Origin: Acidimicrobiales bacterium
GTDB lineage: Bacteria; Actinomycetota; Acidimicrobiia; Acidimicrobiales; Palsa-688
Direction: 5' to 3'
Assembly (NCBI GenBank): GCA_036378675.1
Contig: DASUWA010000047.1
Span: 1 to 64,000, forward strand
DNA: 64,000 nucleotides
The notes under the pieces were generated by a model that was not told the origin of the DNA, searched no databases, and saw nothing but the letters and a program-made list of their open reading frames with translations. Of the stretch, positions 37,744-56,283 are shown one piece after another (the first letter of the stretch is position 1; each line of letters opens with the position of its first letter). A program made the position numbers and the translations under genes.

Positions 37744-40700
37744 TCAACCGACGGGCGCCGGGGGAACCAGAAATCGTCCGATCACCGGAAGCTCCCAGAA
37801 CGACTCCGCCCTCGCAACCGCGATCGCAACTGCGAGCATGTTCTCCGGCGCGTCGTAGATCGCGTAACGCGGCTGCCAGTCAGGATCGAACTTCGCGTTG
37901 AACCTCCATAGCGACTCGATCTGCATCGAGTCGCCCATCCTGCGCAGCACCCACGCCTGAACCTTCTGGCTGACCCCTTCTCCGTTCTCGCCCGCGAGGA
38001 CTGCGCGCATCGTCGCGAAGTTCAAACCGAGACCCTCGTTTCCCCGTCGCTCGAGCTCACGGATCGTCTCGACGACCGCGAAGTCGATCAAGCCGTTGGG
38101 ATGTTCGCCGTTGTCGCGGCGCATCAGGTCGAGCGAGTATCCCCCGATTCCTGGCGCGGGAACGAATTGGCAGAAAGCGACCGGGGCGCCTTGAGTGCCA
38201 GCGTTTGCGACAGCCGAAACGTTCGGCGCTGCGCAGTTCACCGCGGATCCGTTCCCAGACGGTTCGACAGCGCCGGCGGGCCCGTGCACCACCGCCAGAA
38301 GCAGCCCGTGATCCGCGGGGTCGAACACGCGGCCGAGCGTCATCGAGAACCCCCGCTCCACATCGCCGCGCCGGCTCTTGGTCATGACCGCCTCGAGCGA
38401 CTCCCTCAGGCTCGGATCGATCCGGGACGGATCGTGGAAGCTGATGGTGTAGCCGTACTTGGCGATGCGATTGACGGCTTGACGGAGGCCTTTGAACTTT
38501 CCTCCGTCCAGGGAGAATCCGCCAACGCGAACTATCCCCTCGTCGCCCACGTACAGGTCGTGCATTCCCGTCGAGCGGTAGATCGGCAGCCAATCCTCGC
38601 CGGCTCCCAGACCGCCGAGAGCCCAGCCGCGATCGTCGACGTAAGCGCGGAACGCCCGCCACGCTTCGGCGCGTTCGGCCACCGGGCCGATCGGATCTGG
38701 CGACACGAGGCAGACACCGCCATAGACCGCGTGGGCTACGACCGTCTCGCCCCAGAAGAAGAACTGCTTGTCGGGGCGCAGGGCGAAATAGTCGAGCGTC
38801 CCGCTGCCATGGCGAGCGACGACGGCGCGTGCGCGGGTCAGGTCGTCGGTCGAGACGAGCATGACCGAACTGGAAGCCTCATCGAATGACGGGGCTGGGG
38901 CGGTCGCTACGGTGGCCCGTACGGCTTGGCGGCGTTCCACGACCGGCCGGAAAAGGACGACCACGAAGGCCACCGCCAGCCCTGCCGCGGCGGTGGCCAT
39001 GGTTGGCGAAAAGAACATGTCGACGCGGTGGGGGAGACGCACATTGGACACGCCCCCCATACGCTCGACCGAAGCCTCCAGCGCGCGGGACCACGAAAGC
39101 GCGTGCGCCCCTCGCATCGACTTGTTGAACCATGTGCTGAGTTCGAGCGCCCACGAACCGGTGAGCACGGTCAACACCGCCGCTCCGAGAACTCTGAGCA
39201 GACCGGAGCCCACCCGCTCGACGTCGGTCTTCGCCTGGAAGGAGGACCGGTAGACCCAGAGAAAACTCGCGGCTGCGACGGCTATGAGCGATTCCTCCAC
39301 GTCCACGCCCTTGATCACGTGCAGAAGCGCGACAACGAGGAGGAGGACCTGGCACACGAACCACGCTCGTCTTTGTCCTCTTCGAATCCCCCGGGCCAAG
39401 ACGATCAGTCCGACCCCGCCGAGCGCGACCAGAGCCGAAGCGGTCTCGGGGATGGCGGTCGGGAACAGCTCCCGCAGGACGTCCAAGCGGCCGCGCAGCG
39501 GCTCCGACAGAGCGGAGAGGAGGGACAGGAGTCCTGCGGCGAACACTGCGAGCGCCGCCAGGCGCCGGACCCTGCGATCGCGCGACACGACGCTCGGGCG
39601 GCGAGGCCACTCGGCACCCTGCGGCCAGCTCGCCGCGACCTCTGCTCGCATGTCCCCCTGCGTCGGAGCGACCAACCGCTCGGCCATCAGACGTTCGACG
39701 ATCGTGGCGCCGGGCAGGTCCTGCCGTCCGTGCAGCAGGCGGACGTGCACGTCATTGCCGGCCTCCAACTCGACCCACGCCAGCTGCCGGTGCGCCAGGA
39801 AGACGCTCGGAAGCCCCAAGCCCGGCACCCGAGTCGGATACTCGCTGACCACCTCCGTGCCGCACCCCGCGTTGGCGTAGAAGCCGTCCCCGAGATGGGC
39901 CAGCTCCGGCCGGCAGGTGTGCCCGGTGATCAGGCCGGCGTAGCCGTCGGTCACCAGCTGCCTGGCAAGGCAGCGGGCGGGCTCGTTCGGATCGCGCCCG
40001 CCGTCATCGAGCGCCAGCGCCGACAGAGCGAGACCGGTGCGGCGGAGGGCCGCCGCGGCGAGCAGGAACAACAAGGCCAGCTCGACGACGGTCGCGAACA
40101 CGGCCAGGCCCACCCGGGATGTCGCCCCGACGTGGCGGGCGGAGCGAAGCGCGAACGCCGGCAACCGCAGCGCGAGTGCAACGATCACCGGGACCAACAA
40201 CAGCCACGCGGAGCGGCCCAGCCGCCGGTACACCAGCCGCGATCCGATGAAACGCGAAAGCGCCGCAGGCTCGTCCAGGTCCTCCATCCCCGAAAGCCAT
40301 TTCGCCTGGCGGGCCCCCGACTGCCGCCGGCGCATCGCGGGCATCACCTCCTCGCGAACGTGCTGCGCGAAGGGGGTTTCCCGGGGGTTGCGCGGATCGG
40401 CGCACCGGGTCAGCGGATCGAGGGTCTGGCCTGGTTCGACCCGCACCTTTCGCTCGCCGGCCCCGGTCGACAGGGTCAGCTCGACCGACAGAGCCACGTC
40501 GGCTCCGAGAAGCTGCCGGACGTCGTGCTGGCATTTCTCGGACCACGCGAGCCTCGAATCCCGGTCACCCGGCAGGATCACGACCCGGCGGTTCGATCCC
40601 GCCGCGTAAGTCGCAATGTCCACCGCCAGGCGGCCGTGGGCGGCGAGAGCCTGGGACGGGTCGACGTTGGAGTCGAACAGGTTGCCCGCGAAGATCAACA

Positions 40701-40866
40701 CGCCAGGCCCCGTCGCTGCTTCCACCGCGGAGGCGACCTCATTGACCGCCAGGACGTCCGCAGGGCGCGAGTCGCTGCTCAGGTGCAGGTCGGCCACAAC
40801 CATGACCCGCCCCCCGACAGGGACCTCCAGCTGGAGCTCGTCGGGGATCTCGTTGTTGTCGGCCAA
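37744..40866 (-). CDS. Metallophosphoesterase-like / multi-helix membrane / DUF2156 (MprF C-terminal-type) fusion protein
   Basis: This 1040-residue protein starts at TTG 40866. Residues 15-380 resemble a calcineurin-type phosphoesterase: D26-x-H28 (VVADLHLSSD), GNLFD at 61-65, GDRD at 100-103, GHTC at 315-318 and NAGCG at 332-336. Consensus histidines in GNHD and GHTH are replaced by Arg102 and Cys318. Two helices (220-240 and 255-275) are inserted inside this domain. Further helices lie at 434-452, 476-492, 502-518, 527-542, 556-575 and 622-640. Residues 660-1040 are a DUF2156 aminoacyl-transferase-like domain with LDYFALRPDKQFFFWG, SPDPIGP and ESLWRFNAKFDPDWQPRY, as in MprF/LysX-type lipid aminoacylation. 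The lipid substrate is unknown. Confidence 0.85.
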   Translation of the reverse strand: MADNNEIPDELQLEVPVGGRVMVVADLHLSSDSRPADVLAVNEVASAVEAATGPGVLIFAGNLFDSNVDPSQALAAHGRLAVDIATYAAGSNRRVVILPGDRDSRLAWSEKCQHDVRQLLGADVALSVELTLSTGAGERKVRVEPGQTLDPLTRCADPRNPRETPFAQHVREEVMPAMRRRQSGARQAKWLSGMEDLDEPAALSRFIGSRLVYRRLGRSAWLLLVPVIVALALRLPAFALRSARHVGATSRVGLAVFATVVELALLFLLAAAALRRTGLALSALALDDGGRDPNEPARCLARQLVTDGYAGLITGHTCRPELAHLGDGFYANAGCGTEVVSEYPTRVPGLGLPSVFLAHRQLAWVELEAGNDVHVRLLHGRQDLPGATIVERLMAERLVAPTQGDMRAEVAASWPQGAEWPRRPSVVSRDRRVRRLAALAVFAAGLLSLLSALSEPLRGRLDVLRELFPTAIPETASALVALGGVGLIVLARGIRRGQRRAWFVCQVLLLVVALLHVIKGVDVEESLIAVAAASFLWVYRSSFQAKTDVERVGSGLLRVLGAAVLTVLTGSWALELSTWFNKSMRGAHALSWSRALEASVERMGGVSNVRLPHRVDMFFSPTMATAAAGLAVAFVVVLFRPVVERRQAVRATVATAPAPSFDEASSSVMLVSTDDLTRARAVVARHGSGTLDYFALRPDKQFFFWGETVVAHAVYGGVCLVSPDPIGPVAERAEAWRAFRAYVDDRGWALGGLGAGEDWLPIYRSTGMHDLYVGDEGIVRVGGFSLDGGKFKGLRQAVNRIAKYGYTISFHDPSRIDPSLRESLEAVMTKSRRGDVERGFSMTLGRVFDPADHGLLLAVVHGPAGAVEPSGNGSAVNCAAPNVSAVANAGTQGAPVAFCQFVPAPGIGGYSLDLMRRDNGEHPNGLIDFAVVETIRELERRGNEGLGLNFATMRAVLAGENGEGVSQKVQAWVLRRMGDSMQIESLWRFNAKFDPDWQPRYAIYDAPENMLAVAIAVARAESFWELPVIGRFLVPPAPVG

Positions 40867-40923
40867 GTCGGCGCACGACGCTACTACGCGAGGACCGGTC
40901 GCACCCCGCTACCGTCCCTGACC

Positions 40924-41802
40924 GTGGCAGCACGGGTACCCGCCGCATACGAGCTGGTGGAGGGAGCAAGGCGCCTCGGCCCGCTGCCCTACTCCGCCCT
41001 CGGACCGACGGCCGAACCGCCGATGCCTCCCCCGGTGGACCTTGCCGCATGGACCGCTACTGCGCTGGATGAAATATGGGACGGTGAAGGAAGCCCTGAT
41101 CCATTCACCTACGTCGACGTCGGCGCCGGCGACGGGACCCGGGCCAGGGAACTGCTACGGCTGGGTCCGGAATGCCTGAGCGCCCTCCGCGTCGTCCTGG
41201 TCGAGGAGGATTCGTCCCTACGGGAGCGCCAAGCCGAGAACCTGTCCATCGAGGCGCCGGCCCTCACCCTCGGGCCGGTCACCCCCTCCGACGACCCCGA
41301 CGAGGGCTCCCGGCCGCTGCCAGGCGTCGGTCCACTGGTCACCTCGCTGACCGATCTGCCGGTTCTCGCGACTGCATCGGTCGCGGTCGTGATCGGATTC
41401 GGGTGGCTGAGCCGGCAGCCGGCCGACCGCTACATGTGGCAAGACGGGACCTGGTGGGAGGTCCGGCTGGGAGCTCTGGGCGACGACGGGGACGTCCTCA
41501 CAGAGATGAGCCTGCCGCTCGACGAGGCCCGGGCGGCGACGATGGACGCGGTCGTGTCGGGCCACGTGGACCAGGCTCGCTACGCATCCCCGGTCGGGGC
41601 GGTTGCATGGCTGAAGAGCGCGCTCGCCACCGCTGAAACGGGGTGGCTCCTGGCAGTCGACAGGTGGACCGCCAAGACCGAACCCATCCACGGACAGGCT
41701 CGTGCCATCGCGCTCGACCAGCTCGCAGCGGTGCGCCGGCCGGCTTCCGGGCCGGTACCGGCTGCAGAATCCCTCGAAGTCGTCCGGTGGCGGTTAGGTT
41801 GA
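40924..41802 (+). CDS. SAM-dependent methyltransferase, MidA/NDUFAF7-like (divergent)
   Basis: The 292-residue product has a SAM-binding motif I, YVDVGAGDGTRARELLRL, at 63-80. Then come ALRVVLVEEDSSLRERQAENL (motif II and the LR..Q pattern of MidA/DUF185) and a later DRYMWQDGTWWEVRLG, matching the MidA substrate-side strand. The resemblance is by eye. MidA-family proteins help assemble complex I, and this gene lies just beyond the nuo operon, which supports the call. The start is GTG 40924, with TACCGT 8 bases upstream. It is divergent from the phosphoesterase fusion and 7 bases from the HAD gene. Confidence 0.6.
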   Translation: MAARVPAAYELVEGARRLGPLPYSALGPTAEPPMPPPVDLAAWTATALDEIWDGEGSPDPFTYVDVGAGDGTRARELLRLGPECLSALRVVLVEEDSSLRERQAENLSIEAPALTLGPVTPSDDPDEGSRPLPGVGPLVTSLTDLPVLATASVAVVIGFGWLSRQPADRYMWQDGTWWEVRLGALGDDGDVLTEMSLPLDEARAATMDAVVSGHVDQARYASPVGAVAWLKSALATAETGWLLAVDRWTAKTEPIHGQARAIALDQLAAVRRPASGPVPAAESLEVVRWRLG

Positions 41803-55062: not shown

Positions 55063-56283
55063 GTGTTGACGGTTACCGAGGGCGTTGAGGCCGCGGCGGC
55101 GGTCGGAGTTGCCTCCGGAGGAGCCCGCCCCCGGTGGAAGGTGGTTCTCCGGCAGGGCGTGACCGTGGCGGCGCTCGGGGGCGCGGCTTGGGCGGCTTAC
55201 GATCATCGGTCCCAGTTGTCCAGTGCGGGCTCGATGCTCTCGCAAATACGGGTCGGCTGGCTTCTTGTAGCGATTGCTGCCGAGATCGTTTCCTTCGTGG
55301 TATTCGCCCGGCTTCAGCGCTGGCTCCTCCGGGCTGGGGGCGTGCAGGTGCCGTTGCTCTCGATGATCGAAATCGCCTTGGCGGGCAACGCGATGTCCAC
55401 CTCCCTGCCCGGCGGTCCGGCCTGGTCGGCCACTTGGGCGTTCGGTCAGTTGCGCAGAAGAGGCGCCAACCGGGTCCTGGCCGGGTGGGTAATCGTGGTT
55501 GCTGGAGCTCTATCGAGCTTCGCCGTCTTCGTGATCGTTGCTGCGGGCGCGTGGATCGCCGGCAACTCGGGTCCGTTTGCTCATCTGCGATGGCTCGCCG
55601 CGGTTCTCGCCGCAATCCCCATTCTCGTAGCGATCGCCTTTGAGGCGGCGCGTCACAGCCAAAAAGTGAACGAGTTCTTTGGTGAAACCTGGGTGGCGGT
55701 TTCATCGCATTTGAGACCGGTTCGTGCGATCGGCCGGCTCACCCGCCGGACGGTGGACAGCCTTGGCCTGGTTCGTCCGGGGTTGCCCGGTTGGGCGGAA
55801 GCCTTCGCACTGGCGCTCGCCAATTGGCTCTACGACGCTGCCGCGCTGGTCGCGGTAATCGAGGCGTTGCACATCTCGGTTCCATGGCGGGATGTACTCG
55901 TCATCTACGGCTTCACGCAGATTTCCGCGAGCCTGCCGGTGACACCTGGCGGGCTTGGAGTGGTCGAGGCGTCGATGGCAGCGCTTCTCGTCGCCTACGG
56001 AACCCCGTCGACCTCGGCGGTCGCCGTCGTGCTGCTCTACCGCATCGTGAGCTTCTGGGGACTGGTGCCGATCGGGTGGGCCGTGTGGTTCGGGCTCGAG
56101 ATCGCCCATCGCAACGGCCTACGCCGGAGTCCCCATCCGTGGGCCACGCACGCTCACGGCGACGAACCTGGTACCGAGCTCACCCCCGTCGGGCCGGAGC
56201 GGATACTCCGACCGGAGCCCTGCCGGGGGTGCCCGGAATCCGACGAGGAATCGTCGGCGAAGCCTGGCAGTCTCGTCGCCTGA
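55063..56283 (+). CDS. YbhN/UPF0104 family integral membrane protein (LPG-synthase membrane-region-like)
   Basis: The 406-residue protein has about eight helices. It has the family block GNAMSTSLPGGPAWSATWAF and a late TQISASLPVTPGGLGVVEASM. The family corresponds to the N-terminal flippase-like half of MprF but has no transferase domain here. It could be a lipid flippase or an uncharacterised transporter. A charged tail of about 50 residues is cytosolic. GTG 55063 or TTG 55066 may start it; AGAAGG (55056-55061) fits the TTG better. Confidence 0.85.
   Translation: MLTVTEGVEAAAAVGVASGGARPRWKVVLRQGVTVAALGGAAWAAYDHRSQLSSAGSMLSQIRVGWLLVAIAAEIVSFVVFARLQRWLLRAGGVQVPLLSMIEIALAGNAMSTSLPGGPAWSATWAFGQLRRRGANRVLAGWVIVVAGALSSFAVFVIVAAGAWIAGNSGPFAHLRWLAAVLAAIPILVAIAFEAARHSQKVNEFFGETWVAVSSHLRPVRAIGRLTRRTVDSLGLVRPGLPGWAEAFALALANWLYDAAALVAVIEALHISVPWRDVLVIYGFTQISASLPVTPGGLGVVEASMAALLVAYGTPSTSAVAVVLLYRIVSFWGLVPIGWAVWFGLEIAHRNGLRRSPHPWATHAHGDEPGTELTPVGPERILRPEPCRGCPESDEESSAKPGSLVA

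Follow-up and report, generated by a model that had tools for sequence, protein, structure and literature searches.

The window, by which we mean the whole 64,000-nucleotide stretch of Acidimicrobiales DNA analyzed here, contains a gene whose predicted product begins with a metallophosphoesterase (MPP) domain, interrupted by two membrane helices, and continues as an aminoacyl-lipid synthase of the MprF/LysX type (Table 1). A preliminary description of this DNA had proposed that one polypeptide joins a calcineurin-type domain to an MprF/LysX-like C-terminal domain, and the single 1040-residue frame bears this out. Pfam detects only the C-terminal LPG_synthase_C (DUF2156) domain in the protein. 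An AlphaFold2 model built with 23 family members has a mean pLDDT of 78.1, with values above 80 across most of the MPP core. When the model is compared with solved structures, residues 19-407 resemble LpxH (6pib, Z 17.6) and residues 424-1022 resemble MprF (7duw, Z 31.6).

Table 1. Features of the fused gene in the window, with the basis of each assignment.
Feature	Residues	Coordinates	Strand	Basis or remark
Whole gene: MPP-like domain, membrane hairpin, MprF/LysX-type synthase	1-1040	37744..40866	-	1040 aa, TTG start
MPP fold, first half (motifs I-IV)	11-150	40417..40836	-	AlphaFold2 model, LpxH match, alignment with intact relatives
Motif I, D26-L-H28, kept	26-28	40783..40791	-	Sequence, alignment
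Motif II, G61-N62, Asn for the bridging Asp	61-62	40681..40686	-	Alignment with intact relatives
Motif III, G100-D101-R102-D103 for GNHD	100-103	40558..40569	-	Alignment; Arg also in LpxH (PMC5016852)
Motif IV, E144-P145-G146 for EHG	144-146	40429..40437	-	Alignment with intact relatives
Membrane hairpin between motifs IV and V	200-241, 248-283	40018..40269	-	AlphaFold2 helices, hydropathy 2.4-2.5
MPP fold, second half	290-400	39667..39999	-	AlphaFold2 model, structure comparison
Motif V, G315-H316-T317-C318 for GHTH	315-318	39913..39924	-	Alignment
Synthase membrane helices, like the MprF synthase half	426-643	38938..39591	-	phmmer to MprF 9w50 residues 369-534; 7duw match; hydropathy
Aminoacyl-lipid synthase catalytic domain, LPG_synthase_C	681-1004	37855..38826	-	PF09924, E 2.6e-58; Z 31.1 to 5vrv; motifs aligned with A-PGS 4v34
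Low-complexity insert	866-890	38197..38271	-	pLDDT 38-39; alignment break; missing or different in relatives

The C-terminal half has the features of an MprF/LysX-type synthase, combining a PF09924 score of 197.9 bits (cut-off 27.5) with the synthase membrane helices. It shares these helices and the GNAT-type catalytic domain with MprF and A-PGS (7duw, 4v34; Z about 30), and motifs such as DPIGP, SLDLMR and RFxxKFxPDWxPRY are common to A-PGS along the catalytic domain. Over 40 columns of the synthase do not vary in the alignment of 23 family members, and the window genome holds no second LPG_synthase_C match. Aminoacyl transfer is the activity predicted for this half from its sequence. MprF carries an N-terminal flippase half, whereas the window protein has the MPP-fold domain in its place and gives no PF03706 match in Pfam. 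Six flippase-type PF03706 matches lie elsewhere in the genome, one of them within the window at 55192-56076; it belongs to a membrane protein encoded at 55063-56283 (+), about 14 kb from the fused synthase. LysX, like the window protein, has no flippase half but is fused to a lysyl-tRNA synthetase. Among NCBIfam models the synthase half fits LysX (NF002821) best, at 234.8 bits over residues 427-1029 against a cut-off of 742, and the protein is not a LysX, as it stops after the synthase and has no LysRS domain.

The N-terminal region adopts the two-sheet fold of the calcineurin-like metallophosphoesterase superfamily, many of whose structures match the model. The preliminary description would have been overturned by the absence of such a fold from residues 1-380; the fold is present over residues 20-390, with LpxH as its best solved match. 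LpxH and the window domain share about 20% identity, and both have an Arg in motif III and a membrane-meeting insertion between motifs IV and V (PMC5016852). In LpxH this helical insertion domain lies between His114 and His195 and accommodates the acyl chains; a membrane-facing orientation has been proposed for it (PMC5016852). It consists of four helices, whereas the window insertion, judged from the AlphaFold2 model and hydropathy, is a transmembrane hairpin. Two inserted membrane helices before the last motif had been noted previously as an oddity of this protein. The hydrophobic helices are indeed there, but stand-alone relatives with complete metal sites also carry helices between motifs IV and V, and the helix pair is therefore an old trait of the MPP group. 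The likeness of the hairpin to the LpxH insertion suggests that the ancestral enzyme may have worked on a lipid.

The metal site of the window domain is broken. LpxH binds its metals through Asp8, His10, Asp41, Asn79, His114, His195 and His197, and has Arg80 where motif III usually has a His (PMC5016852). Alignment with intact relatives places the corresponding ligands at window positions 26, 28, 62, 101, 145, 316 and 318, with 102 in the place of Arg80. At 26, 28, 62, 101, 102, 145, 316 and 318 the window protein reads D H N D R P H C, so that five of the eight positions differ from the canonical residues and D26, H28 and H316 alone are canonical. Because LpxH itself has an Arg at the place of R102, this residue need not by itself mean loss; the intact relatives, in contrast to LpxH, have a His in motif III. 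The set expected of a catalytic MPP domain, seven ligands (D-H / D / N / H / H-H) plus a His or Arg in motif III, is incomplete in the window protein. Pfam Metallophos does not match it at E values up to 1, whereas two intact relatives, L025 and L004, pass the cut-off. NCBIfam returns no LpxH match for the window protein, and intact L025 scores 15.7 against the LpxH equivalog (cut-off 134).

These assignments revise the site as first read. Its retained residues had been given as D26, H28, D65 and H316; three of these are kept, but D65 occupies no ligand position, as alignment with the intact members excludes it as the motif II aspartate and points to 62, an Asn in the window protein. Both substitutions already reported, GDRD for GNHD and GHTC for GHTH, are seen in the alignment. 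To these a further alteration is added in motif IV, where intact members read V-E-H-G and the window protein reads V-E-P-G, with Pro at position 145.

The same domain order occurs well beyond the window. Among 198 genomes sampled from the class, 23 have the full layout and 48 some match. A scan of named genomes gave 80 fused loci, nearly all in metagenome-assembled genomes named Acidimicrobiaceae, Acidimicrobiales, Acidimicrobiia, Actinobacteria or Actinomycetes, the nearest being an Acidimicrobiaceae genome at 67% identity. The layout is found in about 100 distinct sequences, the majority of them from Acidimicrobiia, and most relatives come from metagenome assemblies. Fused forms are also found outside the class (G231, G282, G370), other classes of the phylum have stand-alone MPP proteins of about 450-550 residues, and four genomes (G278, G298, G307, G237) have separate MPP and synthase genes. 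A search for viral relatives of the N-terminal part returned none, and a full-text search of the open-licence literature found no paper on a phosphoesterase joined to MprF or DUF2156. The preliminary description had also considered that a sequencing error might have joined two genes. We found nothing in favor of an artificial fusion by assembly or sequencing error, and the recurrence of the layout in 23 class-sample genomes and 80 named-collection loci, from independent assemblies, rules it out and leaves it a negligible probability.

Loss of the metal site is widespread among the fused proteins. All eight site residues are present in each of the 15 stand-alone relatives with an unbroken frame, and in only 5 of 100 fused proteins; two more fused proteins keep seven, 76 keep two or fewer, and 95 in total lack at least one. 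A sixteenth stand-alone entry, L098, appears to be a fused gene interrupted by a frame break, because its tblastn match runs over residues 25-1033. On an MPP tree rooted on the stand-alone relatives, with loss taken as irreversible, the site was lost five separate times. On a 47-row tree built without the site columns, the degraded state changes five times (5-6 times in bootstraps), and the starred branches alone force three changes; the intact fused forms, which number only five to seven, sit near the base. In the synthase tree the outside synthases are not monophyletic and so cannot serve as a root.

Two proteins grouping with or beside the fused forms, L025 (G110:C1:4523086-4527468) and L043 (G243), have complete metal sites and no synthase. 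L025, the one case of an MPP part without synthase among the 198 class-sample genomes, sits inside the fused clade (support 98/81 and 99/97), and its model matches LpxH with Z 17.9; L043 ends in a linker motif known from the fused proteins. Both may represent lineages from which the synthase was lost; a search behind L025 found no synthase remnant.

The degraded domain nevertheless remains under purifying selection. For the MPP part (residues 12-199), dN/dS lies at 0.08-0.38 in 16 of 17 computable pairs, against 0.03-0.16 for the synthase; all computable pairs fall far below 1, and constraint on the MPP part is weaker by a factor of about 1.6 to 5. In 22 intact proteins no columns of the domain are better conserved than those of the site, whereas in 91 degraded proteins the site columns are conserved no more than random ones. 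The degraded members show no compensating set of conserved Asp or His residues, and their 90%-conserved columns are mostly Gly, Pro and Arg, together with an SRxxYRR motif before the hairpin (S209, R210, Y213, R214 in the window protein) that is kept in at least 86 of the 91.

Taken together, we consider it probable that the window protein works as an aminoacyl-lipid synthase and that its LpxH-like domain is a pseudoenzyme, which would act as a structural or ligand-binding module on the membrane side. The ancestor would have been a stand-alone actinobacterial MPP protein with an LpxH-related fold and a complete two-metal site, which may then have joined the N-terminus of an aminoacyl-lipid synthase having neither a flippase half nor a tRNA synthetase. 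After the fusion the metal site was lost several times, one of the losses falling among the ancestors of the window protein, and because of this ancestral loss we infer that the window domain is an inactive pseudoenzyme. The domain may have been retained because its hairpin and fold serve the synthase structurally or bind a lipid head group without catalysis, a role that we conjecture from the fusion and from the selection on the fold. The preliminary description suggested that the domain may regulate or feed lipid aminoacylation, which would be a conjecture from the same two observations. The MPP fold has non-catalytic, structural roles in Vps29 and in the B-subunits of eukaryotic DNA polymerases, both of which occur among the fold matches; these are soluble subunits of other complexes and, unlike the window domain, are not fused to a lipid-modifying enzyme.

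One observation runs counter to the pseudoenzyme reading. Across the nine proteins nearest to the window protein, conservation of the eight site columns exceeds that of random column sets (0.1% of draws), with D26, N62, H316 and C318 constant, indicating that some local constraint is left. Such conservation would suit an altered or one-metal site formed from D26, H28, N62, D101, H316 and C318, with the domain still serving as a hydrolase or metal sensor, and the Arg that LpxH has at the place of 102 (PMC5016852) points the same way. However, in further family members with 47-59% identity to the window protein over the domain, H28 changes to R or L, N62 to G and H316 to T, whereas Asp26 and Cys318 stay constant within the window's own subclade. 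The window protein has also lost the bridging Asp and the His of motif IV, and in LpxH alanine substitution at the counterparts of D62 and H145 removes much of the activity (PMC5016852). An altered one-metal site in the window lineage is thus disfavored and changed metal use as a whole is unlikely. Of the two possibilities raised in the preliminary description, the incomplete sites of 95 of 100 fused proteins, their repeated loss and the unconserved site columns argue for a pseudo-enzyme, whereas changed metal use finds at best slight backing in a subclade where H28, N62 and H316 vary.

A window domain that is still an active phosphoesterase, with other residues replacing the lost ones, is very unlikely. 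Because there are intact fused relatives, the two activities may once have been combined in one protein and may still be so in some members, but the degraded members have no replacement set of conserved Asp or His residues. We likewise regard as improbable that the domain is a remnant of the fusion in slow decay, serving solely to hold the N-terminus in the membrane. The weaker constraint on the MPP part than on the synthase in nearly all pairs would suit slow decay, and L025 and L043 indicate that the halves can part; dN/dS far below 1 throughout and the persistence of SRxxYRR in degraded members argue against it. A more specific version of the pseudoenzyme reading, which we put forward tentatively and hold to be possible rather than probable, is that the membrane phosphoesterase became permanently tied to the synthase, no longer needed its catalytic site, and turned several times independently into a ligand-binding regulatory domain that gates lipid aminoacylation when it senses a phosphorylated or nucleotide-bearing lipid. 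The intact fused proteins would then be two-enzyme machines that process a lipid and afterwards aminoacylate it.

MprF adds a flippase to the aminoacyl-lipid synthase core and LysX adds a LysRS; the MPP domain represents a third such extension. The fused proteins, few of them with complete sites and most with broken ones, together with the intact stand-alone proteins, form a natural series on the function of a domain after catalysis. Should any members prove to be two-enzyme fusions, the substrate they use could indicate which lipid is modified by Acidimicrobiia.

The gene context of the fused loci gave no pointer to function. In the window, nuoN is convergent with the fused gene and downstream of it, and a cluster of nuoN-like ORFs recurs in 33 flanked loci; an Lnt-like ORF, identified by eye from sequence, lies nearby in 25. 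No steady neighbor partner was found among 17 stand-alone relatives, five of which have an ArsA-like ATPase (identified by eye) as a neighbor. In L181 and L195 a diacylglycerol glycosyltransferase-like gene, also identified by eye, adjoins the stand-alone MPP gene. Divergent from the fused gene of the window, and near the nuo cluster, lies a Methyltransf_28 gene (40906-41802, +); NDUFAF7, an assembly factor of eukaryotic complex I, belongs to the same family.
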